Virus record (IMG/VR): IMGVR_UViG_3300032282_000731
Coordinates: 1 to 31,168 of that record
Reading direction: 5' to 3' (one strand)
From: a virus
Length of the DNA: 31,168 nt
Every line of letters begins with the position of its first letter. The stretch's first letter is position 1. This document shows positions 1-23,374 of this stretch, in pieces. The translations under genes and the position numbers were made by a program. The notes under the pieces are model-generated. The model was not told the DNA's origin and made no database searches. It was given only the letters and a program-made list of their open reading frames with translations.

Positions 1-176
1 CTAGGTCTTGGTCTGGGTCTGCGTCTGGGTCTTGGTCTGGGTCTTGGTCTTGGTCTGGGTCTAGGTCTAGGTCTTGGTCTGGGTCTGCGTCTGGGTCTTG
101 GTCTGTGTCTTGGTCTTGGTCTGGGTCTAGGTCTAGGTCTGGGTCTAGGTCTTGGTCTGGGTCTGGGGCTAGATAA
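1..176 (+). CDS. Ser-X dipeptide-repeat protein, copy A (5' end outside window)
   Basis: The reading frame is open from the window edge (first full codon at 3) to a TAA at 174-176, so the start is missing. Nearly every second codon is TCT (Ser). The codon between is GGG, AGG or TGG, with rare GCG and GTG, giving runs such as SRSGSWSGS. The other two plus frames are broken by TAG inside TCTAGG units, so this is the only usable frame. The end matches that of copy B (both finish Gly-Ala-Arg-stop), and a 15-base spacer leads into copy B. I do not recognise the family. The protein would be disordered, positively charged and rich in Trp. It could be a nucleic-acid or membrane-interacting peptide, but nothing in the sequence decides this. 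Confidence 0.55.
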   Translation, partial: RSWSGSASGSWSGSWSWSGSRSRSWSGSASGSWSVSWSWSGSRSRSGSRSWSGSGAR

Positions 177-178
177 AA

Positions 179-254
179 CAGAAAGTTCCTTATGCAAAAA
201 AACTCTCGTTTTAAAAAAGTAGCATTGATGTCGTCTGGGTCTAGGTCTGGGTCT
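179..254 (+). repeat. 76-bp direct repeat, first copy (second at 419-494)
   Basis: Positions 179-254 and 419-494 are identical as read by eye, offset by 240 bases. The repeat covers the 13 bases before the start codon, the conserved 15-codon leader and the first repeat units of copies B and C. Identity in both the spacer and the leader points to a recent tandem duplication or to gene conversion. Confidence 0.9.
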
Positions 255-416
255 GAGACTTGGTCTGGGTCTGGGTCTAGGTCTAGGTCTGGGTCTATGT
301 CTGGGTATTGGTCTTGGTCTAGGGCTGCATCCAGGTCTAAGTCTAGGTCTGGGTCTTGGTCTAAGTCTAGGTCTGGGTCTTGGTCTGGGTCTTGGACTGG
401 GTCTGGGGCTAGATAG
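192..416 (+). CDS. Ser-X dipeptide-repeat protein, copy B
   Basis: This 74-aa protein has a conserved basic leader, MQKNSRFKKVALMSS, followed by about 58 residues in which Ser alternates with Gly, Arg, Trp or Lys. A few changes break the pattern (Glu-Thr near residue 22, Tyr, Ala). The leader and its upstream bases are repeated exactly 240 bases downstream in copy C, so the gene is one unit of a tandem duplication. No strong ribosome site is visible; the bases before ATG are CAGAAAGTTCCTT. A frame kept open through hexamer repeats, with the same start context twice, supports real coding. The function is unknown. The composition recalls eukaryotic RS domains only superficially. An alternative is that the DNA repeat itself is what is selected. 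Confidence 0.6.
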   Translation: MQKNSRFKKVALMSSGSRSGSETWSGSGSRSRSGSMSGYWSWSRAASRSKSRSGSWSKSRSGSWSGSWTGSGAR

Positions 417-418
417 AT

Positions 419-494
419 CAGAAAGTTCCTTATGCAAAAAAACTCTCGTTTTAAAAAAGTAGCATTGATGTCGTCTGGGTCTAGGTCTGGGTCT
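419..494 (+). repeat. 76-bp direct repeat, second copy
   Basis: Second copy of the repeat at 179-254. It contains the start of Ser-X copy C. The two copies diverge just after this block, where copy B reads Glu-Thr and copy C reads Arg-Ser. Confidence 0.9.
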
Positions 495-578
495 AGGTCT
501 AAGTCTAAGTCTAAGTCTAAGTCTAAGTCTGGGTCTTGGTCTGGGTCTAGGTCTTGGTCTAGGTCTTGGTCTAGATAG
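432..578 (+). CDS. Ser-X dipeptide-repeat protein, copy C (short)
   Basis: This 48-aa gene begins with the same leader as copy B (MQKNSRFKKVALMSS) and ends at TAG 576-578. Its repeat part is shorter and has a block of five Lys-Ser pairs (AAGTCT units), then Gly-Ser, Trp-Ser and Arg-Ser pairs, ending in Arg. The Lys block is absent from the visible parts of A and B, so the copies share the leader but differ in repeat length and in the X residue. That is the pattern expected from slippage or recombination between units, with selection keeping the frame. Function is not recognised. It is followed by a 10-bp palindrome (CTTAATTAAG, 590-599) and the next gene. Confidence 0.55.
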   Translation: MQKNSRFKKVALMSSGSRSGSRSKSKSKSKSKSGSWSGSRSWSRSWSR

Positions 579-620: not shown

Positions 621-794
621 ATGACTGTATATCTATGTCGGTATCGTATTAAGGGACGGTTGGTAGAAGAAGACGTTACTGCTTCGTCTCCCTTTCAAGC
701 TCAGAGAATCGTTGAGGCCAAGTTCGCCGGATCCGATTTCAAATGGGCAACGTTGCCTAATCCCAGTCAAAACTGTATTCGTTGGATGCGCTAA
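621..794 (+). CDS. Small hypothetical phage protein (57 aa)
   Basis: The start at 621 has a good ribosome site, AAAGGAA, about eight bases upstream, and the frame ends at TAA 792-794. The protein begins MTVYLCRYRIKGRLVEEDV and continues with a segment rich in Ala, Gln and Glu (SSPFQAQRIVEAKF), ending in a Trp-containing tail. The pattern of a beta strand and turn followed by an amphipathic helix resembles small conserved proteins of T4-like marine phages that start with a YRIKG-type strand, but I cannot assign a family. It lies between the Ser-X genes and the tRNA cluster on the same strand. Codon use looks ordinary for this genome, unlike the repeat genes before it. Confidence 0.65.
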   Translation: MTVYLCRYRIKGRLVEEDVTASSPFQAQRIVEAKFAGSDFKWATLPNPSQNCIRWMR

Positions 795-11083: not shown

Positions 11084-12628
11084 TTAGTTCTTTCCTATCT
11101 TTGCGTCCAATTCTTTGATGCCTTGAATCAACAACGCAACAATCCTATCGTATTTAACTGCGAGATATCCTTCTGATCTTTCTACAACTAGTTCAGGTAA
11201 CACAGTTCTAATTTCCTGAGCGATTACCCCGACGTCTCTTTTTCTCATGAACATAGGATCTTCGCCGCCGTGGGCGTTGATATACTCGTCGTTCCAATCA
11301 AAAGTAACACCACGAATCAACGCAATTTTATCCAGCGCGTTCGGGATTTCTGAAACATTATCTTTGAATCTAGCGTCAGACGAATAGAATGCTGTAATGT
11401 CTCCGGTGGCTCGAATTTCTCCTGACCCAGCGCCTGTGGCTCCTACGTTCAACCCTCCTCCTCCCATGTATACATTTTTAAAGGAGACGATGCCGGTGGC
11501 GCCAATGTTTGTCATTGTAGCGGAACCAGATACGTTCAACGTCGAATTAAAAGTAACAGCTCCGGTGGCACCAAATGTTCCACCAACTGTAGTATTATTG
11601 TGTATTGTTGCTGTAGATTTAAAGGTAACTGCGCCGGTTGACCCCAATGTTCCGATAATAGTAGTATTACCAGTTACATCTAGAGTACTTTTAAAAGTTA
11701 CCGCGCCAGTTGCCCCAAGAGTATACCCAATCGTAACTGCGCCAGTCGCTCCAATATTTCCAGTAGAAAGAGAAGCAATAACACCAAGAGAAGTAATATT
11801 AGGCTGCGCGGCGGTGCTTATCGTTCCTACCAATGTTGCGCCAGTTACAGCGCCACTAGCAGTTAAAGCTGTTGCGCTAAGACTGGAAGATAGAGTCACA
11901 GCCCCAGCAACAGCAAGAGTACCTGTTCCTGTTATGGATACGTTCCCGTTTACTGTTAATGAACTCAGTGTACCAATAGTTGTCAACGATGGCAGCGAAG
12001 TCACAGTACTAGAAAGTAATGTACCAGAAGTTGGTAATGTTACGCTAGTATTTCCAGTCGAAATTAGTGTGACGTCTGACGAACCAGACAATGTAAAATT
12101 GCCACCAAGACTTACTGCTTTGTTGGCTATAGTGAATCCTGTGCCAACAGATGCATTATCAACGCTTAATGTCTGTGTGGTAGAATTGAATGTGAATCCA
12201 GTTGCTCCAGCAAATCCGGTTGCTCCTGCATGAAATTGTACTTGTCCAGAAACACCAGCGGGAGGAGTTACAAATTTGGCCCTTACTTTTTTAATAGAAC
12301 CAGAATTATAGATTAATAGATAATCCGATTCTATAGAAGCAAACTGAGTGAGTTCGGTCTTGCCTGTAATGGCAGCAGATTGTAAGGTGAATGTTGCTGT
12401 TGGCGAAGAACTAGTAACAATGGAGGTAACCTGTACGTCGCCTGTCGCTGTATAATTGCCCCACGCAGTTCCGAATACAGCAATCTGATTTGCTGTTGTT
12501 GTTCCATTAGAAGTAATACTTCCACTGACCTGATTGAAACTCTCGAACGACTCGGCTAAGGAGTTTACCTTTTCTGCCCATTGAACAAGAGAATCTGTAC
12601 TTTTTAGTCTACTAATTGTGGATGCCAT
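11084..12628 (-). CDS. Tail fibre with C-terminal peptidase S74 chaperone
   Basis: This 514-aa protein is a trimeric-fibre type. The N-terminal 30 residues are helical (ISRLKSTDSLVQWAEKVNSL), the middle is a long repetitive beta region with the unit GATGAVTFKST and its variants (residues about 285-395), and the last 99 residues (from 416) are an S74 intramolecular chaperone starting SSDARFKDN. In that family the chaperone helps trimer folding and cuts itself off just before the Ser of SDxRxK; Ser417 and Lys422 are in place. Further chaperone features are VGVIAQEIRTVLPELV and the helical end LLIQGIKELDAKI. The mature fibre should be about 416 residues. Confidence 0.85.
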   Translation of the reverse strand: MASTISRLKSTDSLVQWAEKVNSLAESFESFNQVSGSITSNGTTTANQIAVFGTAWGNYTATGDVQVTSIVTSSSPTATFTLQSAAITGKTELTQFASIESDYLLIYNSGSIKKVRAKFVTPPAGVSGQVQFHAGATGFAGATGFTFNSTTQTLSVDNASVGTGFTIANKAVSLGGNFTLSGSSDVTLISTGNTSVTLPTSGTLLSSTVTSLPSLTTIGTLSSLTVNGNVSITGTGTLAVAGAVTLSSSLSATALTASGAVTGATLVGTISTAAQPNITSLGVIASLSTGNIGATGAVTIGYTLGATGAVTFKSTLDVTGNTTIIGTLGSTGAVTFKSTATIHNNTTVGGTFGATGAVTFNSTLNVSGSATMTNIGATGIVSFKNVYMGGGGLNVGATGAGSGEIRATGDITAFYSSDARFKDNVSEIPNALDKIALIRGVTFDWNDEYINAHGGEDPMFMRKRDVGVIAQEIRTVLPELVVERSEGYLAVKYDRIVALLIQGIKELDAKIGKN

Positions 12629-12885: not shown

Positions 12886-12893
12886 TCTTTATA
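12886..12893 (-). promoter_or_regulatory. Late-promoter-like box TATAAAGA, five bases before ATG
   Basis: Minus-strand TATAAAGA has one mismatch to TATAAATA and is followed by GTAAT and then ATG 12880. It shares the five-base spacing of the stronger boxes at 8223, 8786 and 30345. It overlaps the stop of the upstream gene. Confidence 0.35.
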
Positions 12894-15800
12894 TTGTAAC
12901 AATTGTTCTTAAGTCTGCAACTCTAGGGATATTACAAGTATTATCCGACAACATAACAATCTTGATTGCATATTCAATAAAGTTATGATACGTTGCTCCA
13001 TTTGTATACTTGATTGCCAATGGAGAATTCTCTACTTGCGTTGAAGCAGGAACGTATACATATTCCAAGAATTCGTTTGGATCGGTTGTCACCTTGCTGG
13101 CGTCGGGTGAATCCTGAGTCATTTCCGTCCAGCTTCTGCTATCTAAAGTAGAACTGTCTTCAGAAGATCTAACTTTATAGTAAACTTTGACGGTAGTTCC
13201 ATAAGGTTTATTGGCTGTTAGGTAAACCTTCATGTAGCTGGAATTATCAGCAAGAGTGACCTTCCTTGTGATATATCTTGCCCACGCATTACCACCAGAA
13301 CCAGAGGACTGGGTTTCGTTTGTATAATCGTTGTTGATGATATTTTCTACCTGCACAACAGACTGTCTAGTTGCGTTAATAACAGGAGATACATGTTCTG
13401 AAGAAGTAGAGAAATAGATCTTCTTTCTAAATGATTCCATTGCAGGTTCCACGTTATGAATAGATGTATATTGATAGTTTTTATTTACAGGAACGTCGAC
13501 CCAAGAAACCGTATTTACATCGAACGATCCCGGTCCGGTTGCTCCCTTGACAGACTGAGTTACTGAGCAAGAAGAGAATGGATTAAACACAGCATTAGGA
13601 ACCATGATTACGTTACTGATTGCAGTTCCTTCTGGCTTTCTCTTAAATGTAATAGCAGTTCCTGCAGGAACAGTGGCCGTGATATCGTTACTCATAACAA
13701 TAGTATTATCGAATATCGAGCCGCCAGTTACCGTGGTGTTGGAATTATTGATACCAACTGTACCAGTAACCTTGGATCCATATACAACATTGTTTGTCAA
13801 TAATGAGTCAAGATATAGTACCTTGGCGCCAGTTCCGCTCAGAGTATGTGTTCCGCTAAACGTTCCGGTCGCGCCGACATATGTTGTTCTACCGCTATCT
13901 GAATATAATTTCAAATAGTCAGCATTGATTCTTTCAACGTAATATGTACCAGAAGTTCCCATACCAATATTAACGCTACCAGTATATGTCACTACAGATC
14001 CAGTTGCATATGGATTGTATGGAACTTTAATTATGCCATTTACCCCGCCAACCCCAGTAGCACCAGTAATCGAGTTTGTTGCCGACGTCGCTCTTACTGT
14101 AGAAAGGGTTACAATATTCTCTGCGTCAGTTTCGTCCCAGTCACTACATTCTACTGTGAAGTTTCCTGTAGTGAACTTACACTTATACAACTTGAACGTC
14201 AGGTCTTGTGTTTGTTCTGCGGTCCATGTTGATGCATTTTGAGACTTGAATAATGAACCAACATACGGCTGCGAGGAAATAATATCTTGGTTTCCTCCTA
14301 CCTGAGCTTCTCCAATTTGCGCGACCCACGCTTCATAATTGTTCGAATTCGCCATTAGAACAATAGCATATTCACCTGGCGAGAGGTATACAACATTAGG
14401 GAACGTAACTGTAGTTGCCAAAGAAGCATCGTCAGATGTATTAATCGACGCAGAAGGCACTACTGTATCAACAATAACATTGGTCGAAGATGGATATCCA
14501 TTCAGAGTTTCTCTGATTTGTACTGTCAAACCAACAGAAGAATCCTTGGTTTTGAAATATAGATCCACCTTTGGTATAAAGATTCCTTCCGGATAGATAA
14601 CTGGATCAACAAAGAATGTTTGTGCCAGAGGGTCGACCGGTCTTGGAGGAGTCGGAGCGTTTCTCCAGAAAGGAGAGTTAGGATCTGGCAACGAAACAGG
14701 AATATCTAGGGTGGTTGTTTGTTCCTCTAATCCGTGAGCAACATATTTGCTTTCAGCGCTGGTTGATTCTTGCGCGCGATTTCCAGTAGAAGAATCCGTC
14801 AACAAGAATATTCTATCGCCAACAAAGAACTGTCCCGCTGGAATAGCAAACGAACCGGAAATATTGCCGTTATTGTCAGTGGTTGCACTATTAAAAGTTA
14901 CATAGCTACTAACATTCTTACCATCAAAGAAAGGATATACAGTAGTATTGGGCTTCATTCCAACTGCGCTAAACACAATTGTCTTCGGTCTGATATATTC
15001 AGACATACTAACATCGGCCACAATATTCCCGGACTGCAGAGTTGTTAATTTAATTGGCGGAGGAGTCGGAACGGTTACTGTTTCAGTGATCGGCCGCTGA
15101 GAAGTTGTAGCAGGAATTACCTGAGTGAATGGAGTCAAAATCCAGGCACCTGGTTGAGCAGAACTGTTCTCAGGAATTGTAACTGTACCGCTTGAATTCT
15201 GTCCTGTATCAGCAATAGAAGTGATGTCGGTTGAATTTGCAGTTCCTGCAGGAATCAGATTTCCAGCTGGAACGAATTCAACATGAGTGCCGCTCCAGGT
15301 TTGTTCAGGAATACTGACTTCCTCAAATCCAGTCGTGACTGTTTCTGTCCCAAACCACATTGAATTCCATTGGTTAAACAATGTACCAAAAGGATTCTTT
15401 CCTGCTGTGACGTTATCTAACGCGCCAGATGGGTTGTTGACGTTTCTTGGAACAAGTTTAGTATCTTTCCAGAAATCGTTATTTGGAGAAAGAGTAACCT
15501 TGCCGATCCAATTAAACACAGAGAAAGGATTAACATTTACAGATCTGGACGCAACGGTTTGCGTAACGAAACTAGTTGCGCCATAACTTGCTGTAATTAA
15601 ATTACCAACTCCAGTTGCTCCTGTAAACGAAACAGGAGTTAACTTATATCCCTTCTGTCTGAACTCTGGTCTTAGTTCCTGAGCCTGAATATCCATGGAG
15701 CAATGGTAATCAGCATTAGATACGTCTCCGATATTATGTCCAGAGAAAGAATCGACAAGGATTCCGTTTTTAAATCTATCTGTACCGGCTGTATCCTTTA

Positions 15801-18570
15801 CATTAAACAACGCAGTATTTTGTTCTAGCGCAGAAAGAGATGTATAGTATTCAACGTTCTCGATTCTCTTTTCTAATTTACCGATATCCCTCATTGTATA
15901 TCGTTTATTTTCAATGAACTTCATTATGACAGAGTCGGGAGTATAAGTATATGCCGGAATATACATTTGATACATCGTCATTCCGTTGTCAATATCCTTA
16001 GGAACTTTAGGAGTCAGTGAAGGGATCCCCTGGATATTTGTGAACGTACCATCCACTGTTACAGCAATCTTATCGATTCTCGGTAGATAGTATGTAACAT
16101 CAGCAGAATATGTGCTATTAACTTTAGGGATAATAACCGGAGAAGAGAACGTCGTAGAGTTTGTCTTAGTGGGTCTGCAATCGATAGCGTTCAACAAATT
16201 GATCTTGTTTTTGTTGGAGTCGATATAAATTTGTGGATTGCTTGCGTCCGCTGCTGGATAAGAATTCGCAACAAACATTCCGCCATTGATGGTATGACTG
16301 TAGTATTCGAAGAAAATAGCAACAGGTCCAGGAACCGTCTGTCCTGCTATTAACGATACCGAAGCAAGATCATAATAATTGTCTCGCTGACCATTGTCAA
16401 AGACAAATTTATTAGTTACGTTCTTAGATTCGTCGAACCAATCGTTCATAGTTGGGCTAGAAACATTGGATAGAATCTTTACTATTTTAATTCCATCTGC
16501 CTTACCCAAAGAAATCGCGCCTGTTGTTGTCGCTGAATACTGTACTCCTGTGGCTAAATCAGCTGTGCCAGCAGTAAACGCAGGACAAATCTTATAATAA
16601 TCTGTAACTCCGGCGGTGATGGTAGGACCAGTACCATCTAACGTAACAGTTTTTGTGGTTTGATTATACCCGACAATATCATAAAATGTTGTCAGGCTTT
16701 TGTTGGGTCCGGAAGTTACAACCAACTTCCCGTTTTTATAGAAATCAACGTCGGTGCCGTTCGCGGTATTCTTTAATGTAACACTATGCGAATTAGTGGA
16801 ACTAGCTGCAAAATATCCTTCAGCAGCACGCACCGACACTCTGGTCTTTGAGTTAATTGTTGGGTTGCCATTAAATATTTTCGCAACGACTTTACAACTA
16901 GTAAAGCTGGCGCTAAACGATAATATGACGTCTCTGCCTCCATTAGTGGGGGTAGGGGTTGAAGAAGGAACGATTTTAGTTCCTGCGTTATTGATTACAT
17001 AATAATCAGACGCGCTGCTAGAATATGTTCCAGAACCAACACTCAGAGTAGAAAGCGTAATAGTGTATGGACCGCTTCCAGAAACTGTAGAAATAGATTG
17101 ATAATAAGAGTAACTGAAATTATAATCAGCTAAACTGGAAACTGCTCCATATCCTAGATTATAAACCAGAGGAGTTTGTTCAGGTTTGGTTAGTACTGAG
17201 GAAGCAATTGTTCCGTAACATGTTCCGCTGTTGTATGTAGAGGTATGATTGGATATTTTGGTAACATCCGTGAACGCATAACCTGTATCCATTACTACAT
17301 CGAACAGATAAAAATTGAATGTAGCCGAAGTAACAAAATCTATATCTCTTACTTTAGCAGATCCGATTTTTACGCTGCTGACATTATACAGATAAAAATT
17401 CATACCAGGCGCGGAAGAAGGTCCGGTATTACCGTTATTAATGTCTGGCAATCCAGCAACAATTGCAACCTGCACATAATTACCGTATGTGATAGAGACG
17501 CCTTTATTATTTTCGCTGGCAGTTGTTCTTGCCTTTGGAACATCCAATTCCTGGGTGGTAATTGTTTCTACTTCATAACCCTTTACATATGCCTTACCCT
17601 TAGAAATTCTAGCGACTAAGTTGGTACTATCTGTTTGGTCGCTCTCCAGGTTCAGGATGAAAGGCTTGACTGTATAGTCTCCTGACTCGTCGAAAGTTCT
17701 ACGAGCAAGGGTTTTCATAATCTCAGAATAGGAAGGACGAGGAATTTGTTTGTATAGTTGGCCTTCCCTCGCTTCTAATAATTGAATGAAGGTATCAGAA
17801 GTGTATCCAACTTCTTGAGACTGCAAGGTCAAATCAATCTTTAGACGGTGCGCACCAGGAGCAGCATAATTATAGGAACCGTTTGCGTTGTCTAGTAAAG
17901 TATCGTCATCGATGTCGTCGATGATATTTACTGAAGAATCTAATCCTGCTAATTTGTTTGGAGAGTTTGTATACTTATCTAACCAGGTTGTTTGAGCAGA
18001 ATTAATTACAAATATTCCTTGGGTGAAGAAAATCCCTGAATCGATAGAAACAGTAGAAGATGGTCCCATCGATGAATACGTGGCCGAGTCTTCTGCTATA
18101 AAAGACGAACTACGAACCGTGGCCATCGAAACCGATTCTACGGAAAGAGTGTCCGAGGTTGTGAAAGAATATCCATTAAGAGGTTTGTAGATTAGAGTCT
18201 TAGGAACAGTTGCATCGGTTCCGTCGTCTACTGCTACAACTAGACCCTGGGCCGAATTGGTAGAACCAACAATCACCTTTCCTAAAAATTCATTAACATT
18301 TACTGCTGCACTATTATATGTGTCGGCGATAGTAATATATCTAGGAGTCTGACAGTCAACGGTTGTCTGTCCGCCCACAACAATGGATCCGTCCTTGAAG
18401 ATATGATTCCCGAATCTTTCCACTTGAGTTTGGAGGATGGACTGCATCTGGTTCAATTCTCTGGCTTGTACAGCATAACCAGGTCTGAACAGAATTCGTA
18501 GGAAGTCTTTATCTTCTGGAGAATAATCGTCAAAATATGGTGCAGAATTTAGTTGTTTGATAACGGACAT
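12889..18570 (-). CDS. Giant virion protein, DUF4815-like (1893 aa)
   Basis: This is the largest gene in the window. The N-terminus APYFDDYSPEDKDFLRILFRPGYAVQARELNQMQSILQTQVERFG (residues 10-54) has the RPGxAVQARELNQ...QVERFG signature of DUF4815 phage proteins. A long beta-rich middle follows, and a region from about residue 1311 (DPLAQTFFVDPVIYPEGIFI) with a jelly-roll-like stretch is seen in T4-like cyanophage baseplate or fibre proteins. The C-terminal part (about 1700-1893) is another beta domain ending in NIPRVADLRTIVTI. It follows gp8, where T4 has genes 9, 10 and 11, so it may replace these as fibre socket and peripheral baseplate. It contains four GATG motifs. A TATAAATA late promoter and an AGAGG ribosome site precede ATG. 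Confidence 0.8.
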   Translation of the reverse strand: MSVIKQLNSAPYFDDYSPEDKDFLRILFRPGYAVQARELNQMQSILQTQVERFGNHIFKDGSIVVGGQTTVDCQTPRYITIADTYNSAAVNVNEFLGKVIVGSTNSAQGLVVAVDDGTDATVPKTLIYKPLNGYSFTTSDTLSVESVSMATVRSSSFIAEDSATYSSMGPSSTVSIDSGIFFTQGIFVINSAQTTWLDKYTNSPNKLAGLDSSVNIIDDIDDDTLLDNANGSYNYAAPGAHRLKIDLTLQSQEVGYTSDTFIQLLEAREGQLYKQIPRPSYSEIMKTLARRTFDESGDYTVKPFILNLESDQTDSTNLVARISKGKAYVKGYEVETITTQELDVPKARTTASENNKGVSITYGNYVQVAIVAGLPDINNGNTGPSSAPGMNFYLYNVSSVKIGSAKVRDIDFVTSATFNFYLFDVVMDTGYAFTDVTKISNHTSTYNSGTCYGTIASSVLTKPEQTPLVYNLGYGAVSSLADYNFSYSYYQSISTVSGSGPYTITLSTLSVGSGTYSSSASDYYVINNAGTKIVPSSTPTPTNGGRDVILSFSASFTSCKVVAKIFNGNPTINSKTRVSVRAAEGYFAASSTNSHSVTLKNTANGTDVDFYKNGKLVVTSGPNKSLTTFYDIVGYNQTTKTVTLDGTGPTITAGVTDYYKICPAFTAGTADLATGVQYSATTTGAISLGKADGIKIVKILSNVSSPTMNDWFDESKNVTNKFVFDNGQRDNYYDLASVSLIAGQTVPGPVAIFFEYYSHTINGGMFVANSYPAADASNPQIYIDSNKNKINLLNAIDCRPTKTNSTTFSSPVIIPKVNSTYSADVTYYLPRIDKIAVTVDGTFTNIQGIPSLTPKVPKDIDNGMTMYQMYIPAYTYTPDSVIMKFIENKRYTMRDIGKLEKRIENVEYYTSLSALEQNTALFNVKDTAGTDRFKNGILVDSFSGHNIGDVSNADYHCSMDIQAQELRPEFRQKGYKLTPVSFTGATGVGNLITASYGATSFVTQTVASRSVNVNPFSVFNWIGKVTLSPNNDFWKDTKLVPRNVNNPSGALDNVTAGKNPFGTLFNQWNSMWFGTETVTTGFEEVSIPEQTWSGTHVEFVPAGNLIPAGTANSTDITSIADTGQNSSGTVTIPENSSAQPGAWILTPFTQVIPATTSQRPITETVTVPTPPPIKLTTLQSGNIVADVSMSEYIRPKTIVFSAVGMKPNTTVYPFFDGKNVSSYVTFNSATTDNNGNISGSFAIPAGQFFVGDRIFLLTDSSTGNRAQESTSAESKYVAHGLEEQTTTLDIPVSLPDPNSPFWRNAPTPPRPVDPLAQTFFVDPVIYPEGIFIPKVDLYFKTKDSSVGLTVQIRETLNGYPSSTNVIVDTVVPSASINTSDDASLATTVTFPNVVYLSPGEYAIVLMANSNNYEAWVAQIGEAQVGGNQDIISSQPYVGSLFKSQNASTWTAEQTQDLTFKLYKCKFTTGNFTVECSDWDETDAENIVTLSTVRATSATNSITGATGVGGVNGIIKVPYNPYATGSVVTYTGSVNIGMGTSGTYYVERINADYLKLYSDSGRTTYVGATGTFSGTHTLSGTGAKVLYLDSLLTNNVVYGSKVTGTVGINNSNTTVTGGSIFDNTIVMSNDITATVPAGTAITFKRKPEGTAISNVIMVPNAVFNPFSSCSVTQSVKGATGPGSFDVNTVSWVDVPVNKNYQYTSIHNVEPAMESFRKKIYFSTSSEHVSPVINATRQSVVQVENIINNDYTNETQSSGSGGNAWARYITRKVTLADNSSYMKVYLTANKPYGTTVKVYYKVRSSEDSSTLDSRSWTEMTQDSPDASKVTTDPNEFLEYVYVPASTQVENSPLAIKYTNGATYHNFIEYAIKIVMLSDNTCNIPRVADLRTIVTI

Positions 18571-20176: not shown

Positions 20177-23100
20177 TTAGATAATGTTGATTTCTGATTC
20201 TGGAAGGGAATTCGTCGCCTTACCAGTTGTCTTATAATAGACTATCCCAGTAGCTCCGCTTACAGGAATATTTATACCATTATAATTGATAGTGGAATAA
20301 TCGAAATCTGGCGAACCGAAATCCTTTTTGATATACAACAAGTTCGCTGAGCGATCCCAGTAGTCTACAGTTCCCATTGCATATATTCCAGTTGCTCCGG
20401 TTGTTTGTAGTTGAATAACTCTGTCCCCGGATTTAATTCCGGGTTCTTCTATTTCAACCATAGGAGCAGATATATATCCGCTACCTGCGTTTGTCATGAC
20501 GATATTGCTGACCTGTCCATTGGTAACTGTTGAACTTGCTGCTGCTCCAGTTCCTTCTCCGCCAGTGAAATATACTCTAGGAGAAGAAAAATATCCATTT
20601 CCATTAGTTGTTATGTCACAACTAACAACACTCCTCAGAACATTATGAGCATCTTGTGTCGACCCCACGACTTCTACCAACATTCCGGAAGAATGCGCCG
20701 CCGCTGTTGTACCATCATATCCTCGGAGTACTTTAAAGACGTTCTGTACATTGTCATAATCCGATAATAATAATAGCTTTTCGTTCTCTATCTGAACAAC
20801 ATCGAACGCATTTAAGACTGAACTGCTCTGGACTCTGATATATATTCCTGTAGAATCCATGGCAGTGGTTAGCCTGGTGGTTTTATTTTGTAGGGTAGCC
20901 GAAGCCTTAGCAGGAACAAACGCCGTGGCACCAGATGGAATATATAGAACAGTTCCACCAAGTTCTGAGAACTTCATATAATCAGAAGAAGGAGAATTTG
21001 TATTGTTTAGGCTTGCATATGCATATGCTGTTCTTAGAATGCCTGTTGCTCCTAGTTGAGTAAATGTTACGTTAGGAGCGAATAGGTAGTATTTTCCTGC
21101 GTCATATACCGTGACGGCAGTAATTACACCGCTCACTACAGTGGCTGTGGCACCAGCTGCTTTTGCATATCCAGTTCCGGTGGCTCCAATCGGCGCTGTA
21201 ATATCTACACGAACACCATATCCAGCACCTGTTACATAACCAGAACCTCCGTTCGAAACATTAATAGAAGAAATACCAGTAGATCCGGTTGTATAATACC
21301 CGTCGTTACCAGCACCGGTTGCTCCAGCAAAATCTGGTAACAGGTAATATGTAGAATTTGTTGTAGGGGCAGTTGCGCCGGAAGCGTGTAAAGTATATGC
21401 AGTAGAATATGTTAAGACTCCGGTCGCTCCATACGCAGTTACTTTCCCAAATTGTCCAGCGGCTGGACCAGAAGTAATATAGATTCTCCAGCCAAGATAT
21501 CTATGATCTGTAGTATTATAGGCTGTTGCGCCTTTGGTGTGAGTGGCGGGGGAGGTACCGGATGCGGCTCTCGTCACGCTTAGATTTAATACTCCTGTTG
21601 CACCTTTTGTCCAGTTGACAATCATCTTCTCTGAATCTACCTGGATGACATCCCCGACCTTGACGTTTAGTGTATCTGATAGGTCCAGTACAATCCCAGT
21701 AGATCCAGTATCAGTTGCGGCCGACAACACAGAAGAGACGTTGTTTGTAAATGGAATGTATCTCATAGGATCCAACGAAGAAAGCGTCATTTTCTTGTTG
21801 GTATAATCCATAGAGGCAATTCTATAATTCTGAATCAGTCTATATGTAATCGGCGAAGAAGAAGGAGTGAACGCCGAATCCAAAGTAATGACTTTGGTAC
21901 TTGTATTATATGCTGTGACGTATCTATAGAATGTATTAGAACCTTCTGTGATAATTACAGAGAAGTTTAAATATTCGTCGCTATTATTAGAAAACCTGGC
22001 GGTGTCAGAAATATCAACTGTTGACTGAGAAACCAATGATACAGAAACAGTTGATGTGAAATCTACGTATGGAACAGGATATGTAACGGCTTTGTTCAGA
22101 TCGATATCCAAATTAATTGGGCCCAGGGAATATGCACTCGGCGATAACTCGCTCACAAATTCTTCGTCTGCAAAGTTGATAATATTAGTTTCGTTATTCA
22201 GAACCTGTTCGTCAAGAGCAGCAGCAGAAGACAATGTAATCTTAATGAAGTATCTTAATCCAGCTGGATGGAATAGATTTTCGACGACGTTCTTAAACGA
22301 TTTAATCGATTCTTCCGATTGTAATTCATACGAAAAATCTTGATAGTACGTCGAATCCTGGATTCGTTTTCTTGAAGAAGGCTGACCTTCGTCAGAAAGA
22401 TAATACCCCTGTCCAAGAGTCAGGACCTTTCCATTATATACATAAGTTGATCCTAACAGTTCTTGTATACCTGTGATTGGATAATTATAGACTTTCTTGG
22501 ATCCGGATTCGTTAAACGTACCATTAATATTTGAGATCGTTAGTGCAATATAATCTACTGTGGAAACCGTGATTTTATCCACTGCTTCAATAATCGCAGT
22601 AGCACCAGATTCTTCCAGAATTCTCTTGCCCACATACTGATCTCTGAACGTCAGGTAATCTATACTAGAAGACAAGTATATCTTACGGTCGATATTCCAT
22701 CTTCCGTCCGACACTCTCAGCATATCTGTTTTGGGATAATAGAAATCGACAGTTGTGTTAAACAGAATACGGTATAGAAATCTGATAGAATTTTCGATAC
22801 CAGCAGAATTATAGAACTGTTTAATAAACTTGACAAACTTCTCCACTTCAACCGACGCAGCCGTCGATGAATACAACTTAGCAGGGAAAGTAGGAATATA
22901 TTCGTTTTCAAGAAACGTCGTTAATAATGCAACTTCTTGATCTATGTCTCGCGAGCTGAGAACCTGGACAACAGCCGGATTGACATTACCCAGATCTCTG
23001 ACAATTATTGGTTCCGCCGCTGCGCCTGTACCAGTAGAATCCTCTATATAAACAGTGACTTCGTCTTCTGTGTCGTATCCGGATCCATAATTTGTGACCA

Positions 23101-23374
23101 GGATCTTTTCTAGTCTTCCATTACTTACATATGCTTCCAGTTGAGCCGGATCCGAAGACGCGTCTGCCAGTCCATTAATTCGTAATTGAACAACAGGAGA
23201 CGAAGAATAATTCTTTCCCTGATCAGATACCGTCACGGCAATGATCTGTCCAACTGTTCTATCCAGATAATTATAATATTCCTTCAAGAAATTGAGGAAC
23301 AGCGGATACTCTTCTCGAATATATTGAGGGATTAATTTATCGAGGAATAGTCTTCTAGAATATGGATTGGTCAT
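20177..23374 (-). CDS. 7: Baseplate wedge protein, gp7-like (1065 aa)
   Basis: Position between gp6 and gp8 and length close to T4 gp7 (1032 aa) support the call; direct similarity to T4 gp7 is not evident by eye. The N-terminus YSRRLFLDKLIPQYIREEYPLFLNFLKEYYNYLDR is a helical opening that I know from cyanophage wedge proteins. It carries repeated modules with G-SGY...P-V-I, at residues 43-125, about 700-775 and 915-987, the same type of module found in gp8. Seven GATG tetrapeptides and several GATA variants occur in the second half. Its start follows the gp6 stop by two bases. In T4 gp7 is the core of the wedge that joins the other wedge proteins. Confidence 0.75.
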   Translation of the reverse strand: MTNPYSRRLFLDKLIPQYIREEYPLFLNFLKEYYNYLDRTVGQIIAVTVSDQGKNYSSSPVVQLRINGLADASSDPAQLEAYVSNGRLEKILVTNYGSGYDTEDEVTVYIEDSTGTGAAAEPIIVRDLGNVNPAVVQVLSSRDIDQEVALLTTFLENEYIPTFPAKLYSSTAASVEVEKFVKFIKQFYNSAGIENSIRFLYRILFNTTVDFYYPKTDMLRVSDGRWNIDRKIYLSSSIDYLTFRDQYVGKRILEESGATAIIEAVDKITVSTVDYIALTISNINGTFNESGSKKVYNYPITGIQELLGSTYVYNGKVLTLGQGYYLSDEGQPSSRKRIQDSTYYQDFSYELQSEESIKSFKNVVENLFHPAGLRYFIKITLSSAAALDEQVLNNETNIINFADEEFVSELSPSAYSLGPINLDIDLNKAVTYPVPYVDFTSTVSVSLVSQSTVDISDTARFSNNSDEYLNFSVIITEGSNTFYRYVTAYNTSTKVITLDSAFTPSSSPITYRLIQNYRIASMDYTNKKMTLSSLDPMRYIPFTNNVSSVLSAATDTGSTGIVLDLSDTLNVKVGDVIQVDSEKMIVNWTKGATGVLNLSVTRAASGTSPATHTKGATAYNTTDHRYLGWRIYITSGPAAGQFGKVTAYGATGVLTYSTAYTLHASGATAPTTNSTYYLLPDFAGATGAGNDGYYTTGSTGISSINVSNGGSGYVTGAGYGVRVDITAPIGATGTGYAKAAGATATVVSGVITAVTVYDAGKYYLFAPNVTFTQLGATGILRTAYAYASLNNTNSPSSDYMKFSELGGTVLYIPSGATAFVPAKASATLQNKTTRLTTAMDSTGIYIRVQSSSVLNAFDVVQIENEKLLLLSDYDNVQNVFKVLRGYDGTTAAAHSSGMLVEVVGSTQDAHNVLRSVVSCDITTNGNGYFSSPRVYFTGGEGTGAAASSTVTNGQVSNIVMTNAGSGYISAPMVEIEEPGIKSGDRVIQLQTTGATGIYAMGTVDYWDRSANLLYIKKDFGSPDFDYSTINYNGINIPVSGATGIVYYKTTGKATNSLPESEINII
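20269..20276 (-). promoter_or_regulatory. Intragenic TATAAATA, possible late promoter for gp8
   Basis: A perfect TATAAATA on the minus strand lies inside the 3' end of the gp7-like gene, about 108 bases before the gp8 start. It could add gp8 transcript, or be a chance match in AT-rich codons (Gly-Ile-Asn-Ile). Confidence 0.25.

Follow-up and report, generated by a model that had tools for sequence, protein, structure and literature searches.

Sm/LSm proteins, which include the spliceosomal SmB, D1 and D3, Lsm1-7, archaeal SmAP and bacterial Hfq, share a fold that also serves in protein complexes, and SmB, D1 and D3 bear tails of Arg-Gly dipeptides. In SR proteins, which are RNA-associated splicing factors, the Arg-Ser domains place Ser at every second position together with Arg. 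Among other arginine-rich sequences, the dipeptide repeats poly-GR and poly-PR of C9orf72 condense with RNA through electrostatic and cation-pi contacts (PMC8096919), and contacts of the same two kinds underlie the phase separation of an RG-rich coilin segment with RNA (PMC10881997).

The phage genes analysed here resemble each of these systems in part. They encode arrays of Ser-X dipeptides, and the protein usually encoded next to them has a predicted fold in common with Sm/LSm proteins and a pattern that partly resembles Sm1; however, this partner is a viral protein of acidic pI with no canonical Sm2 Arg-Gly, and its Arg-rich counterpart is encoded by another gene, with Arg alternating with Ser and Trp also present. 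Arg stickers and Gly spacers are shared with the C9orf72 repeats and the coilin segment, but the former are disease products and the latter is a domain of a large protein, whereas the phage peptides are encoded by dedicated genes and have the form (Ser-X)n, with X a random 1:1:1 choice of Gly, Arg and Trp. Unlike SR proteins, the phage peptides carry no RRM and contain Trp and Gly as frequently as Arg, and we do not claim homology between the two.

Ser-X genes at the start of the window

The window, the whole stretch of 31,168 nucleotides that was analysed, is a linear contig of 31 kb from IMG/VR, derived from a T4-like phage, with genes for an exonuclease/RNase H family protein, a sliding clamp, a clamp loader and a RegA-type repressor. 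Translation of positions 1-578 bore out what an earlier note, made from the letters alone, had described as a tandem gene family in a single frame, with one partial and two complete copies consisting almost wholly of alternating Ser and X. Copy A (1-176, plus strand; read from base 3, stop codon TAA at 174-176) is the 3' part of a gene cut by the contig start, while copies B (192-416, plus strand; 74 aa) and C (432-578, plus strand; 48 aa) are complete and share the leader MQKNSRFKKVALMSS. The 76-bp exact repeat that the note had pointed out, comprising spacer, start and leader, lies at 179-254 and again, offset by 240, at 419-494 (both plus strand), and the five Lys-Ser pairs reported for copy C are present. 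The X residues of the three copies are G 21, W 15, R 15, K 7, A 2, V 1 and M 1.

On its right side, the Ser-X insertion is bordered by a 57-aa gene (621-794, plus strand; SPFQAQRIVEAK) without a family match, which precedes the tRNA/RNase H region and is kept in T4-like relatives (L006-L009). A DNA search with the window region returned tRNA matches only. Directly past the Ser-X cluster, at 936-1172, are tRNA genes for Thr (UGU), Gly (UCC) and Pro (UGG); the tRNA-Gly UCC is able to read GGG, the near-exclusive Gly codon of the Ser-X arrays.

Coding evidence for the Ser-X frame

The statement in the earlier note that only one frame is open did not survive inspection, as a Pro-Arg and an Asp-X frame on the minus strand run through positions 1-578 without any stop (205 and 194 aa, both running off the end of the contig). 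Since the GGTCTN hexamer gives stops in some frames only, several frames of such an array are intrinsically open, and an open frame is by itself no coding evidence. IMG/VR was therefore scanned for seven GGTCTN units, and the matches listed that had enough flank, 115 viral arrays, were compared. Among these listed arrays, 95 of 115 had, in the Ser-X frame, an in-frame ATG no more than 75 nt upstream, and in 94 there was in addition a stop within 90 nt past the array; in the five other frames, the same ATG test was positive for 3-13 arrays per frame. In GGTCTN arrays of cellular genomes an in-frame ATG was found in 7 of 69. The variable base N had a median entropy of 1.54 bits in the viral arrays, which is nearly maximal for three residues. 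Cellular hexamer microsatellites share the GGTCTN unit and tandem growth and loss with the phage arrays, but they are monotone, near-perfect copies of one hexamer (0.0 bits) and are not tied to a start codon. Thus, the claim that these are real genes holds through the comparison of starts, stops, codons and X composition rather than through the open frame, and the Ser-X frame almost certainly codes for protein.

An explanation at the level of DNA or RNA would make the array a microsatellite or a set of regulatory sites and the ORF incidental. The hexamer is indeed open in several frames, and Gly and Arg at X are nearly always encoded by NGG, so the DNA unit is homogenised. However, ATG and leader occur in the Ser-X frame only, the genes overlap that of the partner, Ser is specified by TCN codons in some genes and AGC in others at equal X composition, and the cellular arrays of the same hexamer behave differently; this explanation is thus very improbable.

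Two origins of the arrays were rejected. A pure microsatellite does not agree with the frame preference and non-uniform units of the viral arrays, unlike the cellular ones. As to an assembly artefact, such arrays are carried by a contig near-identical to the window (L004) and by another that is 97.5% identical (L005), and Ser-X genes are also present in two complete circular GenBank phages. The earlier note would have taken the absence of a homologous leader or of an open frame from every related genome as a refutation. The proposal withstood this test, since both features are widespread.

Association with a predicted Sm-like protein

Directly upstream of the Ser-X genes there is usually a member of one of two protein families, type I (about 85-90 aa; ...YIYTGKLxGVN...IVYETGxF...IESFG) or type II (about 110 aa; ...IRTVT...ASWVADSGRF...EVEP...), which are homologous to each other (hhalign probability 97.3). 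Neither has an above-threshold match in PHROGs or Pfam, and a sequence search of the PDB was likewise empty. AlphaFold models (pLDDT 92.5 for type I and 89.7 for type II) predict an N-terminal helix followed by a strongly bent five-stranded barrel, and Foldseek searches against the PDB gave Sm/LSm proteins as all 50 top matches for type I and as almost all for type II, with modest E-values (~1e-3). By eye, alignment A1 contains an Sm1-like G-x-L-x-G-V-N-x pattern (GKLxGVN, with G32 invariant), with a hydrophobic or other residue where the motif normally has its Asn. The canonical Sm2 Arg-Gly, or the KH of Hfq, is absent from the same alignment, where the sequence of the last strand is xxxIESFG, Glu79 being invariant, and Glu-Ser stands in the place of Arg-Gly; therefore, we speak of an Sm-like fold and not of a canonical Sm protein. 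The partner is small and acidic (median pI 5.0) and is predicted to fold like Sm/LSm proteins, and an acidic barrel without the Sm2 Arg-Gly may not bind RNA itself.

A partner-first search that ignored the arrays yielded 306 (type I) and 381 (type II) viral relatives, the best 80 of each being examined. Among the untruncated loci of these best 80, a Ser-X ORF starting with ATG lay within 300 nt downstream at 61 of 72 (type I) and 64 of 78 (type II), and with GTG starts counted a Ser-X neighbour was found at 67 of 72 and 69 of 78, about 90%; these values are to be read with the queries in mind, which were alignments built from array-selected loci, and related loci among the matches do not count as independent. 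The two genes overlap by 4 nt at 63 loci (25 type I, 38 type II), and the upstream gene was co-directional with the Ser-X gene in 66 of 70 cases. A module holds one to five Ser-X genes in tandem, whose peptides join 8-55 Ser-X dipeptides to a short leader. The leader follows the type of the partner: it is basic and KQK[WY]-like after type I and [LM]RxG[FY]D-like after type II, so that a net charge of at least 3 occurs in 44 of 49 leaders after type I vs 6 of 56 after type II, and a G[FLYWH][DEN]/NE-type motif in none of 49 vs 36 of 56. Within a type, partner and leader covary weakly (Mantel rho 0.18-0.20), which could reflect shared ancestry. These genomic comparisons indicate, with high confidence, that the Ser-X gene and the Sm-like gene constitute a two-gene module, and on balance they favour a physical pairing of the two products.

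The putative partner gene occurs at hundreds of viral loci, so the phenomenon is not specific to the window; the module is common to hundreds of uncultured phages of unrelated kinds and is unnamed in the libraries searched. Two phages from Manatee Spring with complete circular genomes in GenBank both carry it; in one (MW202573) the pair is annotated as two hypothetical proteins (UOF78857 and UOF78858), and in the other the partner and the first Ser-X gene are unannotated. Open full-text literature contained no match to Ser-X motif strings and nothing on a phage module of Sm-like protein and repeat, and the pairing thus appears to be undescribed. With regard to hosts, neither partner type occurred in the 398 genomes sampled from one phylum, an empty result that alone proves little, and the type I partner was found in one of 240 sampled genomes of another phylum, on a small contig. 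A 12-kb contig binned to a Patescibacteria MAG (L182) carries a complete type I partner and a Ser-X gene; it is probably a phage contig, and a possible hint of Patescibacteria as host.

The architecture of the module also bears on a toxin-antidote-like or membrane-active pair, in which the peptide would act at the membrane to harm the host or block rival phages and the Sm-like protein would hold or neutralise it. The opposite charges (pI 5 vs 12), the overlapping genes with the acidic partner first, and the several Ser-X copies per genome are consistent with such a pair, as is the Arg/Trp-rich composition, which recalls cationic antimicrobial peptides. The peptides, however, have neither a hydrophobic face nor a signal peptide, Gly makes up 30% of X and Ser about half of the repeat, no PADLOC or NCBIfam model is matched, and some Ser-X genes are found without an adjacent partner; overall, we regard this possibility as rather unlikely.

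Composition and order of the Ser-X peptides

In 222 distinct Ser-X ORFs, Ser occupied 90% of the Ser positions, encoded by TCT (64%), TCG (21%) and AGC (9%), then TCA and others, and the X residues were Gly (30%), Arg (30%) and Trp (27.5%). The ratio of Gly, Arg and Trp was close to 1:1:1 whatever the dominant Ser codon, with counts of 1144/1134/1055 for TCT, 364/365/342 for TCG, 59/55/57 for TCA and 159/163/130 for AGC (homogeneity p = 0.90, ORFs pooled). It was also unaffected by the switch of the Arg codon at X, mainly AGG with TCT and mainly CGG with TCG, and a free NGG codon would be expected to give 50% Arg, vs the 30% observed. The order of X residues was random to first order, all nine X-X transitions having observed/expected ratios of 0.96-1.05 (n = 3652). 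As judged from these sequences, conservation extends to composition but not to order or length.

Overall, the peptides consist of S 39%, R 14.5%, G 14% and W 12%, with a pI of 12.0 and a median charge of +10, and have the hallmarks of sticker-spacer polymers, namely low complexity, Arg and aromatic stickers, and Gly/Ser spacers. Charge, composition and array turnover agree with the cationic, Trp-rich and rapidly changing peptides of the earlier note, and its remark that no such phage protein family is known is in line with searches of PHROGs, Pfam, NCBIfam and PADLOC, which were empty or gave chance matches. Against PHROG, Pfam and NCBIfam models, the Ser-X proteins gave composition-driven sub-threshold matches only, and the PADLOC anti-phage defence models did not match the module. 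A homology search in annotated phages returned no homologues of the Ser-X proteins because low-complexity filters mask them; automatic annotation likewise mostly skips these genes as low-complexity sequence.

Strong positive charge, Arg content and small size would also suit a protamine-like peptide that coats or packages DNA. This role is quite unlikely, however, as in the two complete genomes the genes lie among early and not structural genes, a Trp share of 28% among X residues would be unusual in a protamine, and the translational coupling to an Sm-like protein implies no packaging role.

Turnover of the arrays

Near-identical phages differ in their arrays. Ser-X proteins of 77 and 61 aa (L331/L333) and of 55 and 27 aa (L269/L270) are encoded between flanks that are 100% identical, and those of L335/L339 (63 vs 61 aa) between flanks that are 99.8-100% identical; in L037/L047 the array length is the same and much of the X order is changed. 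The length differences are in-frame gains or losses, an unusual instance of very fast turnover between otherwise identical phages. In two further near-identical contigs (L424, from G003, and L425, from G002), Ser-X copies flank the Sm-like gene on both sides, as 2+1 and 1+2, which suggests that whole Ser-X genes, besides hexamers, are gained and lost.

Such turnover could reflect an arms race if the variable polycation, borne by the Sm-like protein, served as a counter-defence decoy or shield, covering the nucleic acid of the phage or blocking host nucleases or guide RNPs. Besides the fast change in otherwise identical phages (L331/L333, L269/L270), the patchy, mobile distribution and the neighbouring genes fit this proposal, the latter (ssDNA-annealing proteins, exonuclease, SSB and DNA methyltransferases, in a plain listing and not as an enrichment) marking an early DNA-handling region. 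Apart from the partner, there was no frequent conserved neighbour, and DNA recombination, methylase and replication genes were mixed. Constant composition with random order is unlike the specific recognition of a changing target, and both the shield and the arms race carry a low probability in our assessment.

Proposed function

The best reading of these data is an oppositely charged two-component module that is probably directed at RNA, to which we assign a probability of roughly 0.4. The leader would dock on the Sm-like barrel or its assembly, and the disordered polycation would bind nucleic acid in trans, RNA being the most likely target, in a multivalent and sequence-unspecific manner. Arg and Trp would serve it as cation-pi stickers, separated by spacers of Ser and Gly, and their equal shares are what such a polymer would be expected to have; the polycation would in this respect resemble the Arg-rich tails of eukaryotic Sm proteins. 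The benefit to the phage may lie in mRNA control, RNA condensates or counter-defence. In the T4-like lineage of the window, Ser-X copies can also sit apart from the partner. RNA is proposed as the target because the predicted fold is Sm-like, an argument that is weakened by the absent Sm2 Arg-Gly, and action of the module on RNA is accordingly put forward as a tentative suggestion. If only composition matters, the hexamer arrays could gain and lose units in frame without constraint. A more specific possibility, which we consider doubtful, is that an Sm-like ring and a partner-specific leader recruit the random sticker-spacer polymer into RNA condensates in infected bacteria; it is just as doubtful that, in such condensates, polymer composition would be under selection and sequence free. 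Of the three activities guessed at in the earlier note, nucleic acid binding is the most plausible, with DNA coating and membrane action as rivals. The statistically random order and tightly held composition offer a natural test of composition versus sequence in disordered RNA-binding proteins.

Ser-X genes in T4-like relatives of the window

The partner of the window's array was not seen, and was missed by the earlier note, because the contig starts inside the array; a window-like contig reaching left of the array was not found. Both the near-identical L004 (no difference over 5 kb) and L005 (97.5% identity over 5 kb) have an array of the window's kind, that of L005 with the related leader MKKTSRFKKAVLMPS. 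Remoter T4-like contigs (66-69% DNA identity) have no array at this site, and several of them keep the 57-aa gene, which indicates that the array is a lineage-specific insertion.

Other T4-like phages show further arrangements. In G009, whose clamp loader gp44 is 71% identical to that of the window, a type I partner is followed by three tandem Ser-X genes. In L430, a type I partner is followed by the leader MTKKSRLKRIVY and more distally by MRKKSRYKRGVW and MTKKSRFKRVVW, nearest among these to the window's MQKNSRFKKVALM. L128 (clamp loader 73%) has a single Ser-X gene between gp45 and gp44 with no adjoining partner, and the two genes thus need not occur together at every locus. From these layouts, the tandem copies of the window most probably form the distal portion of a cluster of this kind.

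A repeat of another kind was observed in the tail/structural genes on the minus strand of the window. The genes at 11084-12628, 12889-18570 and 20177-23374 contain 7, 4 and 7 scattered occurrences of Gly-Ala-Thr-Gly, respectively, vs ~0.09 expected from shuffled sequences; their codons are varied, and thus it is the peptide, and not the DNA, that repeats.
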